Of a stretch of DNA of 64,000 bases, positions 23,262 to 58,293 are shown piece by piece. This DNA comes from Dongia rigui. GTDB taxonomy: Bacteria; Pseudomonadota; Alphaproteobacteria; Dongiales; Dongiaceae. The notes below the pieces were generated by a model that was not told where the DNA came from, did not search any database, and saw only the letters and a program-made list of their open reading frames with translations. Each line of letters begins with the position of its first letter. Position 1 is the first letter of the stretch. The translations under genes and the position numbers were made by a program. The DNA is taken from the NCBI RefSeq assembly GCF_034044635.1, contig NZ_JAXCLX010000003.1, positions 603,789-667,788 of the forward strand, read 5' to 3'.

Positions 23262-24962
23262 TCAAGCCTTCTCCTCGGCGATCGCGGCGCGCGCGGTTTC
23301 GACCGCCGCGTCGCGGTCGGCGGCGAAGCGTACCATTGGCCGCTTCACGCCGAAGGATTTCAACGTATGACGCACGGACGCATCAGCCGCCGAGATGACG
23401 ATATGGGCACCGCGCTTATGCGCCTTCTTGAGAAACGCCTCGATGGTGGCGGCGGCGGTTGAATCGAGAATGGGGACGGCCGCGAAATCGACGATGACCG
23501 CCTTGGGCTGCGCGCCGATGCGGTCGAAGGCGGCGCCCACACTGGCCGCGGCGCCGAAGAAGAAGGCCCCGGAAATGCGACAGATGAGGATATCGCGGTC
23601 CAGCCCCTCGTAACGCTCGCGCGTGCCACTCGCATCATCCGCCTGATCCTCGGCAAAGAGCGGCCTACTATGCGTCTCGACCGCCACCGCCTGGGACATC
23701 CGGTGCAGCATCAGCAGCGCCGAGAGGCAGAAGCCGGTGAGGATGCCGTTGATGAGATCGCTGAAGATGGTGACGAGGAAGGTCGACATCAGCACCAGCG
23801 CATCGGCGCGCGAGGCTTTCAGCAACGCCGCAAAGGCGTGTTTCTCCGCCATGTTCCAGGCAACGGTCGCGAGCACACCCGCGAGGGCTGCGAGCGGGAT
23901 GAAGGATGCCAAGGGGGCTGCCACCAGCATGAAGACAAGGAGGAACCCCGCATGCAGCATGCCGGAGATCGGTCCCCGCGCGCCGGCGCGCACATTGGTG
24001 GCAGTGCGCGCGATGGTACCGGTGACGCAGATGCCGCCGAAAAGGGCCGAGGCGATGTTGGCCACCCCTTGCGCCACCAATTCGCAATTCGACCGATGCC
24101 GCCGTCCCGTCATGCTGTCGGCAACGACGGCGGAGAGCAGGCTTTCGATGCTGCCGAGGAGGGCAAAGGACAGTGCCGCCGGCAGCATTTCGACGATGCG
24201 GTCATAGCTGATCGGCGGCAAGGCTGGCAGCGGCAAGGTGCTGGGGATACCGCCAAAGCGCGTGCCGATGGTCTCGACCGGCAGACCCAGCAGGGCCGCA
24301 CCCACCGACGCGGCACCCACGGCGATGAGGAGGCCCGGCCAATTGGGGCGGTAGCGGCGCAAGCCGACGATGAGGATGATGGTGAGGAGCGCCAGCGCGA
24401 AAGCGGCGACATTGAAACTCGGCGCAGCAGCGATGAGCGCCGGCACCTTCTCGATCAACTCGCCAGGTTCCTTGCCCTGGAGCGTCAGGCCGAAGAGATC
24501 CTTCACCTGGCTTGCAAAGATGATGACGGCGATGCCGGCCGTGAAGCCGATCGTCACCGGATAGGGGATGTATTTGACGAAGGTGCCGAGCCTCAGCAAC
24601 CCCACCGCGAGCAGGATGATGCCCGACATCAGGACGGCGAGCAGCAGCCCGTCGACGCCATGCACGGTTACCGTCGCCGCCACCAGCACGATGAAGGCAC
24701 CGGCAGGCCCGCCGATCTGGAACCGGCTGCCGCCCATTGCCGAAATAATGAACCCGCCGACGATGGCGGTATAGAGACCACGATCCGGCGTGACGCCGGA
24801 GGCGACCGCGATGGCCATGGAGAGCGGCAGGGCGACAATGGCCACGGTCAGCCCGGCAATGACATCGGCGCGGAAATCGGCGGCGCGGTAACCTTCGCGC
24901 AGGACCGTCACCAGCTTCGGGGTGAAAAGCTCGACGAAACTGGGCTGATGCACGGTGTTCAC
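23262..24962 (-). CDS. SulP-family inorganic anion transporter with STAS domain
   Basis: The 566-residue protein has a membrane domain of the SulP/SLC26 family (residues about 30-410; signature ADVIAGLTVAIVALPLSMAIA and TGTIARTATNVRAG) and a C-terminal cytoplasmic STAS domain (about 435-560). SulP carriers move sulfate, bicarbonate, nitrate or C4-dicarboxylates such as succinate by proton or sodium symport or exchange. No carbonic anhydrase gene is nearby to suggest bicarbonate. The start is a GTG with AGGCG upstream. It is convergent with the DUF2189 gene. Confidence 0.9.
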   Translation of the reverse strand: MNTVHQPSFVELFTPKLVTVLREGYRAADFRADVIAGLTVAIVALPLSMAIAVASGVTPDRGLYTAIVGGFIISAMGGSRFQIGGPAGAFIVLVAATVTVHGVDGLLLAVLMSGIILLAVGLLRLGTFVKYIPYPVTIGFTAGIAVIIFASQVKDLFGLTLQGKEPGELIEKVPALIAAAPSFNVAAFALALLTIILIVGLRRYRPNWPGLLIAVGAASVGAALLGLPVETIGTRFGGIPSTLPLPALPPISYDRIVEMLPAALSFALLGSIESLLSAVVADSMTGRRHRSNCELVAQGVANIASALFGGICVTGTIARTATNVRAGARGPISGMLHAGFLLVFMLVAAPLASFIPLAALAGVLATVAWNMAEKHAFAALLKASRADALVLMSTFLVTIFSDLINGILTGFCLSALLMLHRMSQAVAVETHSRPLFAEDQADDASGTRERYEGLDRDILICRISGAFFFGAAASVGAAFDRIGAQPKAVIVDFAAVPILDSTAAATIEAFLKKAHKRGAHIVISAADASVRHTLKSFGVKRPMVRFAADRDAAVETARAAIAEEKA

Positions 24963-51309: not shown

Positions 51310-52020
51310 CTATTCCTCCTGCCCCACCGGCAGCGGCTTCGTTACCGGGTCCAGCGACAGGCGCTGCGCCAGGATGACGGCCTGGGTGCGCGACGTCACA
51401 CCCAGTTTGCGCAGGATTTCGGTGACATGGGCCTTCACCGTCGGTTCGCTGATCTGCATTTCATAGGCGATCAATTTGTTCGGCATGCCTTCGGCCAGCA
51501 ACGACAGCACCCGGTGCTGCTGCGGCGTCAATTGTGCCGCGCGCTGGGCAAGATCACGGTCGCGGCTGGCCAGGGCATCGTCCCGCGCCGCCTCGGGCAG
51601 CGCCACGGCACCGGCCAAAATCATCCGCACCGCATCCAGGAACCGGTCGGCGGCGGCGAGCTTGGGGATGAAGCCGGCGGCCCCCATCTCAATGGCCTGG
51701 CGCATGGCGGCGGAATTGGTGGTCGCCGAGACGATGGCGATCGGCAAGGCAGGATGCTGCGCCCTGAGCGCCGAGAGGCCGGCAAGGCCCAGCATCCCCG
51801 GCATATCGAGATCGAGCACGACCAGGTCGGTCTCGGGCGCTGCTTCGATTGCCGCTTGAGTCTCCGCCAGGCTGCCGGCAAAGCCGATCTTGGCATGCGC
51901 AAACGCCCCTTTCAGGGCCGCGGCCAGGGCATCTCGCACCATAGGGTGATCGTCTGCCACGACGAAGGCGAGGCTTGCCGCCTCGTTTGCTGATTCCGGA
52001 CCATGGTCCCTGGCTGCCAT
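51310..52020 (-). CDS. NarL/FixJ-type response regulator
   Basis: This 236-residue protein has an N-terminal receiver (acidic pair Asp23-Asp24 in VADDHPMVRD, phospho-acceptor Asp70 in VVLDLDMPG, conserved Lys120 in GFIPK) and a C-terminal LuxR-type helix-turn-helix (LTPQQHRVLSLLAEGMPNKLIAYEMQISEPTVKAHVTEI in pieces). GGAGG lies 7 bases before the chosen ATG. No kinase is adjacent; the hybrid kinase at 44849-48610, whose class usually works with NarL-type regulators, is the nearest candidate. Converges with ohrR. Confidence 0.9.
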   Translation of the reverse strand: MAARDHGPESANEAASLAFVVADDHPMVRDALAAALKGAFAHAKIGFAGSLAETQAAIEAAPETDLVVLDLDMPGMLGLAGLSALRAQHPALPIAIVSATTNSAAMRQAIEMGAAGFIPKLAAADRFLDAVRMILAGAVALPEAARDDALASRDRDLAQRAAQLTPQQHRVLSLLAEGMPNKLIAYEMQISEPTVKAHVTEILRKLGVTSRTQAVILAQRLSLDPVTKPLPVGQEE

Positions 52021-52273
52021 GCCGCCGCCTCCCCCTTGTACCCGGTTCTTATCTGGCACTCTGTCGGCGCCATCTGTTGGGGTCAGCATACACACCGGGC
52101 GGGGGATAGGAAAAGTGCCGGCAGGACTGTGACGGCCCTCTCACCCCGGCCAATTTGCGCGCCAGCCGCTGTTGCTGCCGCCAAAGACCGCGGGCTAGAG
52201 TGCCGGCCACACCAAAAACAGGCATGTTCATGATTCTCTCGGCCTACCAGCTGGATTTTGAGGCCACCCGCCC

Positions 52274-54055
52274 ATGAGCGGCAACACCGCCGACAAGCCC
52301 GCGGTGGCCGATCTGGCGACAGATGCCGATACCGGCGCGCTCAATTTCGCGGCGAGCCTGGCACGGTCCTTCGCCGCCTCGCTCAATGTCGATGCGACGG
52401 TCGGCCAGGCCTTGGGCAGCATCATCCATTTGCTGGAGACGGAGGCCGGCTCCCTGTTCCTGCTCGACGATGCGGGCACGACCCTGGTCTGCCGGGCGAG
52501 TGTCGGGCCGGTCAAGATCGACGGCCTGCGCGTGCCGATGGGCCAGGGTATCGTCGGCCGCACAGTGGCCGAAGACCGCCTCCTCGTCATCGAGAACGCC
52601 TATGAGGATAAGAATTTCTTCAAGGCGGCTGACGAGCGCACCGGCTTCGTCACACGTTCGATCCTCTGCGCCCCCATGCGTGTCGGGGACAAGCTGATCG
52701 GCGCCGTCCAGGTTCTCAACAAGCGTTCCGGCATCCCCTTCGACGGCGAGCATGGCAAGGATGCCAACATGCTGCAGGTGATGGCGAATGCCGCGGCCCT
52801 CGCCATTTCCAATGCGCGCCTGGCCGATCAGCTGCTGGAGCAGGAGCGCATCAAGCGCGAGCTGGAACTGGCATCCGAAATCCAGCGCAGCCTGTTGCCA
52901 AGCGAAGACGACGACCTGCCGATCTGCGGCATCAACCGCCCGATCCGCGAGGTTTCCGGCGATTTCTATGACTATTTCGACTTGCCCGACGGCACGATTG
53001 CGTTTGCCCTTGGCGATGTCTCGGGCAAAGGCATGAATGCGGCCTTGCTGATGGCAAAGACCGCCAGCCTCTTCCGCTGCCTTGGCAAAACCATCCGCGA
53101 TCCGGCGCGCCTCCTCTCCATTCTCAACCGCGAGATCTGCGAGACGACCAGCCGCGGCATGTTCGTCACCATGGTGGCCGGCCTCTACGAACCGGCGACC
53201 GGCCTGCTGCGCTTTGCCAATGCCGGGCACCTGCCGCCGCTCATCAAGTTTCCGGATCATCTATATGAAACCGTGATGCCGGATGCGCCGCCGCTCGGCA
53301 TCCTGCGCGACACGCATTTCGTCGATCACGAGATCAACCTCAAAGGCGGCCTGTTCGTCGCCTTCTCGGATGGCCTGACCGAGTTTCGCTATGGCGACGA
53401 GGAACTGGGTGTCGATGGGCTCAACCAGCTCCTCGAATACGCCCATACCGGCACGCTCAGGCAGCGCCTCAACATGGTCCTCGCTGAGCTCGACCAGGGC
53501 GGCTGGGAAGCCCGGGACGATTTGACCCTGCTCGCCATCGACGATCAATCGGCCGGCAAGGCCTGGCAGCGCGAGCACCCTTCTGAAATGGCGATACCGC
53601 CGGAGGGGGATTTCCTCTTCGGCATCTCCTTCCCGGCCGATCCCAGCCGCCTCAAACTGATGCGCCCGGCCCTGGAAGCGGCCGCCAGGGCCTGCAAATT
53701 CGCCGAGGATGAGATCCAGGACCTGGTCCTGGCGGCCGGGGAAGCCATCGAAAACATCATGGTTCACGCCTATGGTGGGCAGGCCAAGGGCGAAATCACA
53801 CTGGCGGTACATCGTTTGCCGGACGGAATCATGCTCCGTTTGCGCGATTTTGCACCCCGGGTCGATACCGGTAAGATAGAACCTAGGCCGCTTGACGAGC
53901 TAAGACCCGGTGGATTGGGGACGCATTTCATCCGGGCCATCATGGACGATGCCAGCTTCATCCCCCTACCGGACGGGGAGGGGAACCTGTTGGAACTTGT
54001 CAAACGACGCCGCCCCACGGACGAGTCCGGGGCGGACAACAAGGGTGGGAATTAG
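52274..54055 (+). CDS. GAF / SpoIIE-type phosphatase / RsbW-like kinase fusion
   Basis: The 593-residue soluble protein has three modules. A GAF sensor domain spans about 30-185. A linker helix (QERIKRELELASEIQRSLLPSE) leads to a PP2C/SpoIIE serine phosphatase (about 210-425) with metal-binding acids Asp230, Asp248, Asp366 and Asp415-416. An RsbW/SpoIIAB-type HATPase domain (about 450-580) has the N-box in GEAIENIMVHAY and a G-rich GGLGTHF. Such proteins phosphorylate and dephosphorylate a STAS partner. The next gene, 3 bases on, encodes a STAS protein, so both activities acting on it are likely in one chain. The rest of the operon is a lipid ABC transporter rather than a sigma factor. Confidence 0.93.
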   Translation: MSGNTADKPAVADLATDADTGALNFAASLARSFAASLNVDATVGQALGSIIHLLETEAGSLFLLDDAGTTLVCRASVGPVKIDGLRVPMGQGIVGRTVAEDRLLVIENAYEDKNFFKAADERTGFVTRSILCAPMRVGDKLIGAVQVLNKRSGIPFDGEHGKDANMLQVMANAAALAISNARLADQLLEQERIKRELELASEIQRSLLPSEDDDLPICGINRPIREVSGDFYDYFDLPDGTIAFALGDVSGKGMNAALLMAKTASLFRCLGKTIRDPARLLSILNREICETTSRGMFVTMVAGLYEPATGLLRFANAGHLPPLIKFPDHLYETVMPDAPPLGILRDTHFVDHEINLKGGLFVAFSDGLTEFRYGDEELGVDGLNQLLEYAHTGTLRQRLNMVLAELDQGGWEARDDLTLLAIDDQSAGKAWQREHPSEMAIPPEGDFLFGISFPADPSRLKLMRPALEAAARACKFAEDEIQDLVLAAGEAIENIMVHAYGGQAKGEITLAVHRLPDGIMLRLRDFAPRVDTGKIEPRPLDELRPGGLGTHFIRAIMDDASFIPLPDGEGNLLELVKRRRPTDESGADNKGGN

Positions 54056-54058
54056 GGG

Positions 54059-54394
54059 ATGTCCGTATCCAGCGTTAGGGAAGAGCAGGGCAAGATCGTG
54101 ATCGCCCTTGAGGGCGACATCGATCTCGAAAATGCCGGCGAGGTCAGGAAGGCGCTGCTTGCCAACCTGAAGCAGAAGAAAGACCTGCTGATCGATCTAT
54201 CCGCCGTCACTTATATCGACTCCTCCGGCATCGCCAGCCTGGTCGAGGGCCTGCAGGTTGCCAGAAAGCAGAAGAACGAGCTGTCGCTGGTGTCGGTCAG
54301 CGTGCGGGCAAGGCGCGTCCTCGAACTGGCGCGCCTCGACAAGGTCTTTGCCATTCACGGCGACGTCGCCGCCGCTCTCGCGGCGCGGCCCTGA
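54059..54394 (+). CDS. STAS-domain protein (anti-sigma-factor-antagonist type; possible MlaB counterpart)
   Basis: This 111-residue single STAS domain has the conserved loop YIDSSGIASL in which Ser55, the first serine after Asp54, corresponds to the phosphorylated residue of SpoIIAA/RsbV proteins. It lies between the phosphatase/kinase gene (3 bases) and mlaE (15 bases). In canonical Mla systems a STAS protein, MlaB, binds the MlaF ATPase and is needed for activity, so this protein may be MlaB, a phospho-switch, or both. GGGTGGGA and AGGGG stretches precede the ATG. Confidence 0.88.
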   Translation: MSVSSVREEQGKIVIALEGDIDLENAGEVRKALLANLKQKKDLLIDLSAVTYIDSSGIASLVEGLQVARKQKNELSLVSVSVRARRVLELARLDKVFAIHGDVAAALAARP

Positions 54395-54409
54395 GGGCGA
54401 CGTTTGGCA

Positions 54410-55219
54410 ATGGCAAACCCACTTAAACTTCCCGGCAAGTTCTTCGAAGGCATCGGCCGACGCACCGTCGCCGGCCTCGACGAGATGGGTTATGCCGCCG
54501 CCATTTTCTTCGAGGCGATCTATTGGACCCTGACCGGCTGGCGCTATCGCCAACCGGTACGCATCACCTCGGCCTTTGCCGCGATGATGCAGTTCGGCGT
54601 CACCGCCCTGCCGATCGCCACCCTGCTTGCCGCCACCATCGGGCTCATGCTGGCGATCCAGAGCCTCTACAGCCTCGGCCTCTTCGGTGCCGAGCAATAT
54701 GCCTATATCGGCATCGCCCTTTCGGTGGTGCGCGAATTCAGCCCGATGATCATGGGAATCCTCATCGCCGGCCGCTCCGGTTCCGCGATCGCCGCACGCC
54801 TTGCCACCATGAGCATCAACCAGGAGGTCGATGCGCTGCAGGTGATGGGCATCAACCCGGTGCGCTTCCTGGTCTCGCCGGTCCTCATCGCCCTCATCCT
54901 GATGATGCCCTGCCTTGCCATGTGGGCGAACCTTGTGTCGATCCTCGCCGCCGGCCTCTATGTCTCGGCGCAGCTCCACCAATCCTTCGGCGCCTATCTC
55001 AACGACACGATCGAGGTGCTTAAGACCGGCGATGTCTGGCATGGCCTGGGCAAGGCGACGCTGTTCGGCGTCATCATCGCTCTGGTCGGTGTGGTCAACG
55101 GCTCGATGGTGCAGGGTGGTGCCGAAGGTGTCGGCAAGGTGACGACGCGCTCGGTGGTCATCTCCATCACCCTCATCGTCGTCGCCGACATGATCTTCGC
55201 CTATATGACGACGAAGTGA
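54410..55219 (+). CDS. mlaE: Phospholipid ABC transporter permease MlaE
   Basis: MlaE is the inner-membrane permease of the Mla phospholipid-transport complex. The 269-residue protein has an N-terminal amphipathic part, about five spans and the family signature EFSPMIMGILIAGRSGSAIAARLATMSINQEVDAL (read in pieces), plus VVNGSMVQGGAEGVGKVTTRSVV near the C-terminus. It is third in a six-gene unit and precedes mlaF by 4 bases. ATG at 54410 is preferred to TTG at 54404. Confidence 0.94.
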   Translation: MANPLKLPGKFFEGIGRRTVAGLDEMGYAAAIFFEAIYWTLTGWRYRQPVRITSAFAAMMQFGVTALPIATLLAATIGLMLAIQSLYSLGLFGAEQYAYIGIALSVVREFSPMIMGILIAGRSGSAIAARLATMSINQEVDALQVMGINPVRFLVSPVLIALILMMPCLAMWANLVSILAAGLYVSAQLHQSFGAYLNDTIEVLKTGDVWHGLGKATLFGVIIALVGVVNGSMVQGGAEGVGKVTTRSVVISITLIVVADMIFAYMTTK

Positions 55220-55223
55220 CGCC

Positions 55224-56081
55224 ATGACGAACGAAGCCCTCACCGCCGAAGCCGTCAATCAGGCCAACCGCCCCAGCGCCGAAGACCTGGCCGCACGCAA
55301 GAAGGTGATCGAGGTCAACCGCCTCGACTGGTCCTTCGGCACGCGCCAGGTCCTTTACGACATCAATCTCGATGTGCGTGAGGGCGAGATCATGGTGATC
55401 ATGGGCGGGTCTGGCTCCGGCAAGACCACCTTGCTGCGCCATCTCGTGGGCCTGATGCCGCCGCTCCCCGGCAAGATCAAGCTGCTGGGCAAGGATATGG
55501 GCGCATTGTCGCGCATGCAGCTCCTCGAGCTGAAGCGCCGCATCGGCGTCGCCTTTCAGTTCGGCGCCCTCTTCTCCTCCATGTCGGTTTCCGAGAACGT
55601 GAAGCTGCCCTTGCGCGAGCTCACCGATCTTGAGGAACGCACCATGGACATCATGGCCAATATGAAGCTGGAGGTGTGCAACCTCTCCGGCTTCGGCCAT
55701 CTGATGCCCTCCGACCTTTCCGGCGGCATGATGAAACGCGCCTCGATCGCGCGCGCTATCGTCATGGACCCCAAGCTCATCTTCCTCGATGAACCCTCAT
55801 CTGGCCTCGATCCCGTCGTCTCCTCGGCGCTTGACGACCTCATCCTCAAATTGCGCGATGCGATGGATATCTCGGTCGTCGTCGTCAGCCACGATGTCGA
55901 GAGCGCCTATAAGATCGCCGACCGCATCACCATTCTGGACAAGGGCCACATTCTGGCCTGCGACCGCGTCGACGCGGTCCGCAATTCGACCAACGAACGG
56001 GTGCAGAATCTGCTGCACCGCCGGTCTGAACAGGCCGAGATCGATCCAACCGAATATCTGCGTCGCCTCGCGGGGGATTAA
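55224..56081 (+). CDS. mlaF: Phospholipid ABC transporter ATPase MlaF
   Basis: This 285-residue ATPase has Walker A GGSGSGKTT, the Q-loop region FQFGALFSSMSV, the signature LSGGMMKR and Walker B LIFLDEPSSGLDP, followed by the switch histidine in VVSHDVESA. The MlaF-like FQFGALF and GGMMKRA words identify the lipid-transport branch. An N-terminal extension of about 30 residues precedes the cassette. It starts 4 bases after mlaE and ends 6 bases before mlaD. The C-terminal region after residue 240 would be where a STAS MlaB-type partner docks in known complexes. Confidence 0.95.
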   Translation: MTNEALTAEAVNQANRPSAEDLAARKKVIEVNRLDWSFGTRQVLYDINLDVREGEIMVIMGGSGSGKTTLLRHLVGLMPPLPGKIKLLGKDMGALSRMQLLELKRRIGVAFQFGALFSSMSVSENVKLPLRELTDLEERTMDIMANMKLEVCNLSGFGHLMPSDLSGGMMKRASIARAIVMDPKLIFLDEPSSGLDPVVSSALDDLILKLRDAMDISVVVVSHDVESAYKIADRITILDKGHILACDRVDAVRNSTNERVQNLLHRRSEQAEIDPTEYLRRLAGD

Positions 56082-56087
56082 AAGACG

Positions 56088-57110
56088 ATGCGTAATCATT
56101 TTCTCAACTACACGGCCGTCGGCATCTTCGTTGCCGCCATGATCGTGGCGCTGGTGGTCATGCTCTCCATGCTGGCAGGGCGCACGGGACCCACCGACAG
56201 TTACTCGATCGTGCTCGACGATGTGACCGACGTGAAATACGGCACCGCCGTGCGTTTTGCCGGCTTCCCGATCGGCCAGGTCGAGGAAATCTCGCCCGAA
56301 TACAATGCCGGCAAATATCGCTTCCGCCTCCATGTCGCGGTGAAGCAGGGCTGGAAGTTCCCGGCCGATTCCATCGCCCGCATCGCCGCTTCAAGCTTCC
56401 TTGCCGGCAAGACCATCGAGATCAATGGCGGCCAGGCGCAAGAGACCATCGCCCCCGGCGGCGAAATTGCCGGCGGCACGGCAGCCGACATGTTCACGCT
56501 GATGGCACAGGTCGCGGGCGAGATCGGCGATCTATCCAAATCCTCACTGAAGCCCTTGGTCGCACGCATCGGCGAGATCATCGACCGCATCGGCGCCACG
56601 ACCGAGACCAATCTGCAGCAGCTGATGGGCTCGTTGAATGCGATCGCCAGCGAGGTCAATGCCAAGACCCCGACGATCATGAGCAACGTCCAGGACTTCT
56701 CCAGCCAGATCAATGTCGAGATGGGCAAGGTCGACAAGATCCTGTCCGAGAAGAACATCGGCGCCATCGACAGCTCGCTCGCCAACATCCAGAAGGCGAC
56801 CGCCAATGCCGAGGTGGCGAGCCGCGATCTGAAATCGTTGGGCGCCCGCATCACCGCAGTGGCCGACGAGATCCAGGGTATGGTGGCCGACAACCGCAAG
56901 GGCGTCGACAAATCGGTGGCCGATCTCGAATACATCCTGCGCGCGGTCGCCCAGAACATCGATTCCATCACGCATAATCTCGATGGAACGACCCGCAACA
57001 TGAACGAGTTCAGCCGACTCATCCGTCAGAATCCGGGCCTGCTGCTCTCTGGCAGCAATCCGGAAACCGACAAGGGCTTGAAGCAGAACAGCGGAGATGA
57101 AGAAGAATGA
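56088..57110 (+). CDS. mlaD: MCE-domain substrate-binding protein MlaD
   Basis: This 340-residue protein has a single N-terminal membrane span (about 10-28) and an MCE domain (about 38-120, with DVTDVKYGTAVRFAGFPIGQVEEI). A long helical C-terminal region (about 140-320) follows, with motif-like repeats rich in Asn, Glu and Asp. MlaD forms the hexameric lipid channel in the periplasm. The extended helical tail is typical of the longer MCE proteins that may bridge further into the periplasm and is longer than in E. coli MlaD (183 residues). Overlaps the lipoprotein gene start by 4 bases. Confidence 0.92.
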   Translation: MRNHFLNYTAVGIFVAAMIVALVVMLSMLAGRTGPTDSYSIVLDDVTDVKYGTAVRFAGFPIGQVEEISPEYNAGKYRFRLHVAVKQGWKFPADSIARIAASSFLAGKTIEINGGQAQETIAPGGEIAGGTAADMFTLMAQVAGEIGDLSKSSLKPLVARIGEIIDRIGATTETNLQQLMGSLNAIASEVNAKTPTIMSNVQDFSSQINVEMGKVDKILSEKNIGAIDSSLANIQKATANAEVASRDLKSLGARITAVADEIQGMVADNRKGVDKSVADLEYILRAVAQNIDSITHNLDGTTRNMNEFSRLIRQNPGLLLSGSNPETDKGLKQNSGDEEE

Positions 57111-57712
57111 AGATGATGCTGGCACGCCGCCTGTTGCTGGTGACCCTGGCGCTATCGCTCAGCGCCTGCTTCGGCTCCGCCCCGCCGGTGCCCAAGGAGC
57201 AGTATTTCCGCCTCATCGCCAACAGCACGCCCGCAACCGCAGCAAAGCCCGTCGACGGCGTGGTCGAAGTGCCGCCGCTGCAGGCCGAAGGTGTCATGGG
57301 CGAGCGGCCGCTGCTCTTCACCAAGGATGGCGGGCAGAAACTGGAACAGCGCAACTACGCCTATTGGACCGACCCGCCGCCCGCCATGCTGCGCGACCAG
57401 ATCGTCGCCTATCTGCGCACAGCCAAGCTTGCCAAGGACGTGGTGCCGAGCGAACTGCGCGTGCAGGCGCAATACCGCGTCGAAGGCCGCATCAAGCGCC
57501 TGGAGCAATTGAGCGGGGCCAAGAATGCCGCGGTGATCGCGCTGGAGCTTGCCCTCATCGACAAGACCACGGATTCGATCGTCGCCTCCGGCAGCTATGA
57601 AGTCACCAAGGAGGCAAGCGGCCCGGATATCGATGATGCGGTCCACGCCCTCAATGCCGGGCTCAACGAGATTCTGGCGAAATTCGTGGCTGACCTTGGG
57701 AGCGCCGGCTGA
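57107..57712 (+). CDS. ABC-type transport auxiliary lipoprotein (PqiC/LptE-like family)
   Basis: This 201-residue protein has a lipoprotein signal peptide ending in the lipobox LSAC, placing it on a membrane facing the periplasm, then a domain resembling ABC-transport auxiliary components (YFRLIANSTP with LEQRNYAYWTDPPPAMLRDQIVAYL and a VEGRIKRLEQL strand). Such lipoproteins accompany MCE transporters and probably link the MlaD hexamer to the outer membrane. It is the last gene of the six-gene unit and takes the place of mlaC/mlaA, which are absent here. Confidence 0.85.
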   Translation: MKMMLARRLLLVTLALSLSACFGSAPPVPKEQYFRLIANSTPATAAKPVDGVVEVPPLQAEGVMGERPLLFTKDGGQKLEQRNYAYWTDPPPAMLRDQIVAYLRTAKLAKDVVPSELRVQAQYRVEGRIKRLEQLSGAKNAAVIALELALIDKTTDSIVASGSYEVTKEASGPDIDDAVHALNAGLNEILAKFVADLGSAG

Positions 57713-57813: not shown

Positions 57814-58293
57814 ATGTCCCGCGGCGACCTCAAGGTGCATGACCTGCCCCCGGAGAAGATCAAAAGCCTGAAGCACTGCACCATCTCGACCTCCAAGGGC
57901 GACATGAAGCTGGAGATGTTTCCGCAAGAGGCCCCCAATACCGTCGCCAATTTCTATGTGCTGGCAAACGACAAGTTCTATGACGGCCTCAACTTTCACC
58001 GCGTGATCCCGGGCTTCGTCGCCCAGGGCGGCTGCCCCACCGGCACCGGCACCGGTGGCCCCGGCTGGCGCATCGCCTGCGAAACCAAGGGCAACCCGCA
58101 CAAGCATGTCGAGGGGTCGCTCTCCATGGCCCATGCCGGCCGCGACACCGGCGGCTCGCAATTTTTTCTGGTACTCGACCCGCAGCCGCATCTCGATGGT
58201 GGCCATACGGTGTTCGGCCAGATCGTCGATGGACTTGATGTCCTACAATCCCTAGAGATGGGCGACGAGATCAACCACATCCGGTTCGAATAA
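57814..58293 (+). CDS. Peptidyl-prolyl cis-trans isomerase (cyclophilin)
   Basis: This 159-residue cytoplasmic cyclophilin (no signal peptide) catalyses proline cis-trans isomerisation in folding proteins. It has the catalytic arginine in [14 protein letters not shown], the substrate-binding GSQFFLVL with [11 protein letters not shown], and a [14 protein letters not shown] segment. The length matches small bacterial PpiB-type enzymes. It starts about 100 bases after the lipoprotein gene, so it probably has its own promoter. A clear hairpin follows the stop. Confidence 0.94.

Follow-up and report, generated by a model that had tools for sequence, protein, structure and literature searches.

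A partner-switching module encoded with an MlaEFD-type lipid transporter in Dongia rigui: a candidate phosphorylation switch acting on MlaF

The window considered here, a stretch of 64,000 nucleotides of the Dongia rigui genome (RefSeq assembly GCF_034044635.1, contig NZ_JAXCLX010000003.1, positions 603,789 to 667,788 of the forward strand), carries a six-gene operon in which a partner-switching module is encoded together with an ATP-binding cassette (ABC) transporter of the MlaEFD type. The module comprises a phosphatase and a serine kinase, fused in one protein behind a GAF sensor domain, and a STAS protein as their presumed substrate; the transporter is a pump, probably for lipids passing from one of the cell's two membranes to the other. 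Comparison of sequences makes it likely that the transporter ATPase, MlaF, is switched by this dedicated module, with the unphosphorylated STAS protein as the active form. The parts, their motifs, their linkage and the co-inheritance of the STAS protein with MlaF are established at the level of sequence, and the reading of gated transport built upon them is well supported by comparison, although not proved. The recurrence of the arrangement in many distant bacteria suggests that membrane lipid traffic is turned on and off by a switch built into the system.

In the proposed mechanism, the STAS protein would occupy on MlaF the place held by MlaB in the Mla system. The RsbW-like kinase domain would bind the STAS protein and phosphorylate its residue Ser55, while the SpoIIE domain, under the control of the GAF sensor and of the signal that it may perceive, would strip the phosphate. 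The unphosphorylated STAS protein would dock on MlaF via its helical face harboring Ser55, where the C-terminal tail of MlaF would hold it, and the STAS-bound ATPase would stay assembled and active. Once phosphorylated, or held by the kinase, the STAS protein would depart from MlaF and transport would stop. MlaF would take here the place of the sigma-factor branch of classical partner switching.

The operon and the linkage of its two halves

The genes of the operon are the following (window coordinates):

52274-54055, + strand: fusion of GAF, SpoIIE and HATPase_c_2 domains, 593 amino acids, with Pfam matches over the cut-offs
54059-54394, + strand: STAS protein with the presumed phosphoacceptor Ser55, 111 amino acids, over the cut-offs of Pfam STAS and NCBIfam TIGR00377
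54410-55219, + strand: MlaE-type permease of a distinct subfamily, 269 amino acids, Pfam MlaE at 218.9 bits
55224-56081, + strand: MlaF-type ATPase, 285 amino acids, Pfam ABC_tran, with DPTEYLRRL in its C-terminal tail
56088-57110, + strand: MlaD/MCE protein, 340 amino acids, Pfam MlaD
57107-57712, + strand: PqiC-like lipoprotein, 201 amino acids, Pfam ABC_trans_aux (PF03886)

The six reading frames are intact over 52274-57712 and are separated by 3, 15, 4, 6 and -4 bases. The initial annotation, made from the letters alone, had described a six-gene unit with gaps of -4 to 15 bases, this domain content and a DSSG loop in the STAS protein, all of which is borne out by the reading frames and by Pfam. 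The D-S-S-G motif begins at residue 54 of the STAS protein, its first serine being Ser55, and a lipobox-like LSAC is seen by eye close to the N-terminus of the lipoprotein.

Named genomes were scanned for the module (phosphatase, kinase and STAS protein) via its SpoIIE domain, and the best 80 of at least 532 confirmed relatives were analysed. The order module-STAS-mlaE is kept on one strand in all 80 loci, the kinase and the phosphatase being fused in 78 of them and split in two. The mlaF gene is present in 74 loci (on the opposite strand at L110), and in the six others the contig stops about 1 kb or less past the STAS gene. Further downstream in the list of parts, mlaD is found in 69 loci and the lipoprotein in 64, with no lipoprotein match at L110 and L122 despite more than 6 kb of sequence. 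These 80 loci come from Rhodospirillales and further Alphaproteobacteria, from Gammaproteobacteria and from a few other groups, and the majority are metagenome-assembled.

A search of 96 genomes, that of D. rigui included, shows full-length orthologues of the fusion protein in every one of the seven genomes of the genus and, beyond it, in some other genera and families; module, STAS and mla genes are found together in their neighbourhoods wherever the contig permits. Among the 17 genomes of the family, 11 possess the module together with this mlaE subfamily and five lack the two of them; the exception (G016, 68% complete) exhibits an mlaE match at a contig start and no module match. At the level of the class, the mlaE subfamily, defined by scores above 270 bits, the next listed match being at 209, is present in 14 of 385 genomes. 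The module is located directly upstream of mlaE in 12 of these 14 and is convergent beside mlaDFE in one (G227), and a contig end cuts the last. A chance neighbourhood is ruled out, because the 80 loci all keep the same gene order on one strand and presence and absence are matched in the family. The co-occurrence of the phosphatase with mla genes, on which the initial annotation had staked its reading, holds across relatives (80 of 80 loci, 16 of 17 genomes of the family). A second class of the phylum, presumably Gammaproteobacteria, yields fusion-protein matches in 52 of 369 genomes at E <= 1e-70; 60 places were listed, and 37 of them were examined.

Some loci depart in detail from this plan. 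In family f59, two tandem STAS genes lie between the kinase and mlaE (L050:1276-2009 and L176:6321-7054), both bearing DSSG in L050; one of the pair may be a signalling STAS and the other a structural one. As for the surroundings of the operon in the window, inspection of the translations by eye points to a response-regulator-like gene upstream on the opposite strand (51310-52095) and to a cyclophilin-like gene after the operon (57814-58293).

Kinase, phosphatase, acceptor serine and sensor

The fusion protein is composed of a GAF sensor (residues ~37-180), a SpoIIE PP2C phosphatase (238-422, Pfam score 136.6 bits) and an RsbW-like HATPase_c_2 kinase (453-577, 82.1 bits). In the phosphatase, D230, D248 and D366 are present in 80 of the 80 loci and D416 in 79; we take these aspartates to be the metal ligands of PP2C/SpoIIE enzymes. 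In the kinase, E490, N494 (N-box), D525 and the G546-G547-L548-G549 segment are invariant in the 80 loci. Judged from these residues, both enzymes look active. The STAS acceptor serine is likewise present in 80 of 80 loci, within a DSSG motif in 79 and an ESSG motif in one. Three features expected of a partner switch were found, namely a SpoIIE phosphatase with its Asp residues, an HATPase_c_2 kinase with an N-box and a glycine-rich box, and a STAS protein with its serine; as to a target with which partners would be exchanged, the sequences show linkage and co-inheritance with MlaF.

STAS-like domains fused to MlaE proteins devoid of a module provide a contrast. Among 21 of them (20 fused-STAS loci from the upper part of the MlaE match list and the one of D. 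rigui itself), the corresponding residue is Thr in 17, Ser in two, Val in one and Ile in one; this is a contrast between groups and not a count of independent events, because the contrast sequences are mutually related.

The sensor domain also exhibits conserved positions: N149 and F156 are invariant in the 80 loci, while K150 is found in 71 and D163 in 79. The resulting N-K...F...D pattern (residues 149-163) resembles the NKxnFxxxDE motif of cyclic-nucleotide GAF domains, and is given as a lead only. In the second class, an HDOD domain replaces GAF in eight of eight tested GAF-less fusions or phosphatases (L250, L252, L253, L254, L255, L259, L260 and L261).

The conservation of the enzymes bears on the view that the STAS protein acts constitutively, as a structural subunit like MlaB, the kinase and the phosphatase being vestigial or governing only its turnover. 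The MlaB protein of Escherichia coli works, after all, with no experimental evidence for phosphorylation of its Thr52 in the available portion of the MlaFB structure report (PMC7367683). Such a view accords poorly, however, with catalytic residues of both enzymes and an acceptor serine kept in 79 to 80 of 80 diverged loci, as well as with the prevalence of Thr in the module-less fused domains, and a constitutive role is regarded as highly improbable.

The STAS protein and MlaF as a probable pair

The E. coli MlaFB structure shows MlaF extended at its C-terminus, with Tyr261, Leu265 and Leu266 of this extension inserted between MlaB and the adjacent MlaF; Thr52 of MlaB lies near the centre of the interface, and MlaF does not enter the complex stably without MlaB (PMC7367683, from the portion of the report available, as in all mentions below). 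Ser55 of the STAS protein aligns with this Thr52. The D. rigui genome contains three MlaE loci. Besides the operon, L053 comprises MlaE and MlaF only, in the stretch read, and L054 (4451-7982) encodes an MlaE with a fused N-terminal STAS-like part, MlaF, MlaD and a PF03886 lipoprotein, resembling the Mpc system of Brucella. All 71 complete module MlaFs carry, in their 40 C-terminal residues, a Y-[LMVI]-x-x-L motif that was defined after inspection of the module tails; none of 22 other MlaFs (those of L053, L054 and the 20 fused-STAS loci) carries it, and it is encountered again in 13 of 13 further module MlaFs.

A striking case is that of loci in which the transporter is exchanged. At L110 and at five places of the second class (L245-L248 and L250), the module stands with canonical-type MlaE, MlaD, MlaA and MlaC; Pfam identifies MlaA and MlaC at all of these loci but L246, where phmmer alone does so. 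The mlaF gene is convergent in five of these six loci and adjoins the STAS gene in L250. The six MlaEs score 91-100 bits against the MlaE of the window and 182-197 against that of E. coli, and they cluster with the E. coli and L053 MlaEs in a FastTree phylogeny with a support of 0.999. The six MlaFs, conversely, reach 314-318 bits with the MlaF of the window and 165-184 with that of E. coli, and FastTree gives the module MlaF of L252 as the nearest non-canonical neighbour of each of them. At L260 (3829-7377), mlaF alone follows the STAS gene, with no mlaE in the stretch read. Since MlaF stays of module type where MlaE is canonical, and since L260 retains mlaF only, the simplest reading of these sequences is that the STAS protein and MlaF constitute the functional pair.

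Several observations weigh against this reading and the switch built upon it. The model of the STAS protein (predicted local distance difference test, pLDDT, of 93.2) possesses a strand at 98-100 and a helix at 103-108, and it does not conform to the minimal STAS fold of MlaB, devoid of the fifth strand and of the last helix. Its best PDB match in Foldseek is RsbV in the RsbV/RsbW complex, MlaB coming at rank 38, and it reaches 31.1 bits with the mlaB equivalog NF033618, far under the cut-off of 90. The earlier proposal that the STAS protein takes the MlaB place is supported by the conserved MlaF tail, the linkage and the lack of another mlaB over the Pfam cut-off, with the correction that the protein itself resembles RsbV and is not recognized by the mlaB equivalog. 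The E. coli MlaF tail, D-Y-H-A-D-L-L, is comparable to the module motif but does not follow it letter for letter. Support for the node uniting the six exchanged-locus MlaFs is only 0.497 in the MlaF tree and, as rooted, the E. coli and L053 MlaFs fall inside the module group on very long branches; because of this weak node and these branches, the MlaF type was assigned from pairwise scores.

To these points are added modules found without an adjacent transporter. Genome G356 possesses phosphatase, kinase and STAS genes with no mlaE nearby. At 30 of the 60 places of the second class, a STAS gene together with mlaE or mlaF is in reach at 22 and not at eight (L227, L232, L236 and L238-L242), within flanks of at most 1.5 kb; six of these eight are GAF-SpoIIE proteins whose kinase domain is neither fused nor directly adjacent, one of them with a kinase-like gene ~2 kb upstream. 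Among seven further places, STAS and mla genes are found at five (mlaF only in one case), L254 has a STAS gene without mla genes, and at L253 the sequence ends after the kinase. Lastly, the T52A variant of E. coli MlaB still binds MlaF but is non-functional, with a greatly reduced ATPase activity (PMC7367683). Being bound yet inactive, it misfits a simple control in which phosphorylation turns transport off; the hydroxyl therefore matters, and this position may have more than one mode of action.

The same variant lends some weight to the opposite sign, in which the phosphorylated STAS protein would activate MlaF and the phosphatase would shut transport off with the very same parts. The BtrV protein, whose binding to BtrW is promoted by phosphorylation according to the available part of a review of STAS-only proteins (PMC8256260), is a precedent of this kind. 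However, the T52E substitution weakens the binding of E. coli MlaB to MlaF, and the authors expect a phosphate at this position to repel MlaF (PMC7367683). The inverted sign is thus considered unlikely, and the unphosphorylated STAS protein is retained as the probable active form.

The STAS protein might also serve another target, such as a transcription factor, a cyclase or another enzyme, with the module merely co-expressed with the transporter. Orphan modules lend themselves to this explanation, as they imply that the module can have another use or lie away from its transporter, and the STAS-only proteins covered in the available part of the review act in gene regulation (PMC8256260). Candidate partners were sought by Pfam profile searches in the D. 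rigui genome, which is 99.75% complete. The SpoIIE domain is present in a single copy, and the STAS proteins over the Pfam cut-off are that of the operon and one SulP-type frame only; STAS_2 (PF13466) adds weak matches, one of them at the N-terminus of a fused MlaE. The HATPase_c_2 family gives 26 matches, the operon kinase at 7.1e-24 and the others at 7.5e-9 or weaker, the latter frames being taken for histidine kinases and similar proteins. No second free-standing STAS protein or RsbW-like kinase of comparable score was found by these searches. With the SigB/F/G model, no sigma factor passes the cut-off, and the two matches below it, frames of 662 and 321 amino acids, are taken for housekeeping sigma factors; ECF and further sigma families lay outside this search, and the restricted scope counts in favour of another target.

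A sigma output of the SigB/F/G kind is unlikely, both genome matches being under the cut-off. None of the three counter-cases that the initial annotation had raised against itself came to light: the phosphatase co-occurs with mla genes in relatives, the only other STAS protein over the cut-off, SulP-type, and the weak PF13466 matches provide no separate true mlaB, and no sigma factor emerged as STAS partner within the SigB/F/G families covered. The near-complete linkage with its matched presence and absence, the module-type MlaF even beside a canonical-type MlaE, and a genome with neither a SigB-type sigma factor over the cut-off nor a second comparable RsbW-like kinase make a separate target decidedly unlikely, and MlaF is kept as the candidate output.

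A few further observations concern these genes. The SulP-type frame is 578 amino acids long, and its STAS domain lies at window positions 23325-23597 on the - strand. At L249 (5259-7658), an orphan module lies beside FHA-like and PP2C-like genes (by eye), and mlaE is not among its neighbours in the stretch. At L251 (53-3645), a GAF/SpoIIE/HATPase fusion without an adjacent STAS gene is near a cyclic-nucleotide-binding-like protein (by eye). The GAF-SpoIIE proteins of another family of the phylum, f188, look unlinked to mla genes: mlaE is absent from 12 of 12 loci within flanks of at most 1.5 kb, and also from the wider stretches read for nine of the 12. One locus of this set, L143, has a STAS gene.

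Transporter type and comparison with known systems

The operon had been named an MlaEFD lipid-transporter operon, a designation that suits its MlaE, MlaF and MlaD but does not extend to a canonical Mla system: the operon is devoid of mlaC and mlaA, its MlaD is long and its lipoprotein is PqiC-like. MlaC homologues sit elsewhere in the genome. The AlphaFold model of MlaD, of low confidence (pLDDT 66.7) and usable as an outline only, comprises an N-terminal helix, an MCE domain and a helical C-terminal part of ~180 residues; its nearest folds in Foldseek are Mce1 and MlaD. The lipoprotein matches PDB entries 13hr, 13hs and 13hq, and MlaD matches a different chain of 13hr. The transporter may form an envelope-spanning bridge, and its cargo would be phospholipid.

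The authors of the MlaFB structure leave it open how active MlaB is controlled and regard phosphorylation as an intriguing possibility, for which they have no experimental evidence (PMC7367683). Many species encode the transporter along with a sensor, a kinase and phosphatase pair and a serine at the MlaB-equivalent position, which makes this question directly testable. If the mechanism is true, it would constitute a partner switch with an ABC transporter as its output. The balance tips slightly towards a widespread class of phosphorylation-controlled lipid traffic in Alpha- and Gammaproteobacteria. Its fixed core would be the STAS-MlaF pair, with MlaF as the target in the sigma/anti-sigma place, and its exchangeable parts would be the sensor, either GAF or HDOD, and the transporter half, of the Mla-Pqi type or a complete Mla set including MlaA and MlaC; a cytoplasmic signal could quickly set the lipid balance of the outer membrane. 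The arrangement was not found described in the literature searched, which leaves out bioRxiv and most subscription journals; as far as seen in that literature, both halves, the Mla transporter and the partner switch, are known, and their union is not.

On the signalling side, the RsbU/RsbW/RsbV and SpoIIE/SpoIIAB/SpoIIAA switches share with the operon a PP2C phosphatase, an HATPase_c_2 serine kinase and a STAS protein with an acceptor serine; their target is a sigma factor, whereas here it would be an ABC ATPase. The SiaABC and HsbRAD systems follow the same phosphatase/kinase/STAS logic with a non-sigma output, in biofilm signalling and not in lipid transport. In Vibrio fischeri, SypE is a dual serine kinase/phosphatase acting on the STAS-only protein SypA at Ser56, with an output not known as a sigma factor. 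Unlike the operon described here, SypA has no link to a transporter in the part of the review available (PMC8256260).

On the transporter side, E. coli MlaFEDB has in common with the operon the MlaE, MlaF and MlaD homologues, the correspondence between STAS Ser55 and MlaB Thr52, and a hydrophobic C-terminal tail of MlaF. It differs by the presence of mlaC in its operon and by the absence of any annotated kinase or phosphatase within the 8 kb examined; in D. rigui, the STAS protein is longer (an extra strand and helix), MlaD has 340 residues instead of 183, and a PF03886 lipoprotein is present. The nearest relative of the transporter is Mpc, the chimeric Mla-Pqi system of Brucella abortus, which possesses a long MlaD-like protein (331 amino acids against 340), MlaE and MlaF homologues and a Pqi-like part, according to the available portion of its description (PMC12436622). 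The long MlaD and the Pqi-like lipoprotein were both recovered in the operon, and the permease-fused STAS domain was not, MlaE being 269 amino acids long and the STAS protein having its own gene. MpcE includes its STAS domain as an N-terminal fusion (same source), whereas the STAS protein of the D. rigui operon is free-standing, bears a serine and is accompanied by its own kinase and phosphatase.

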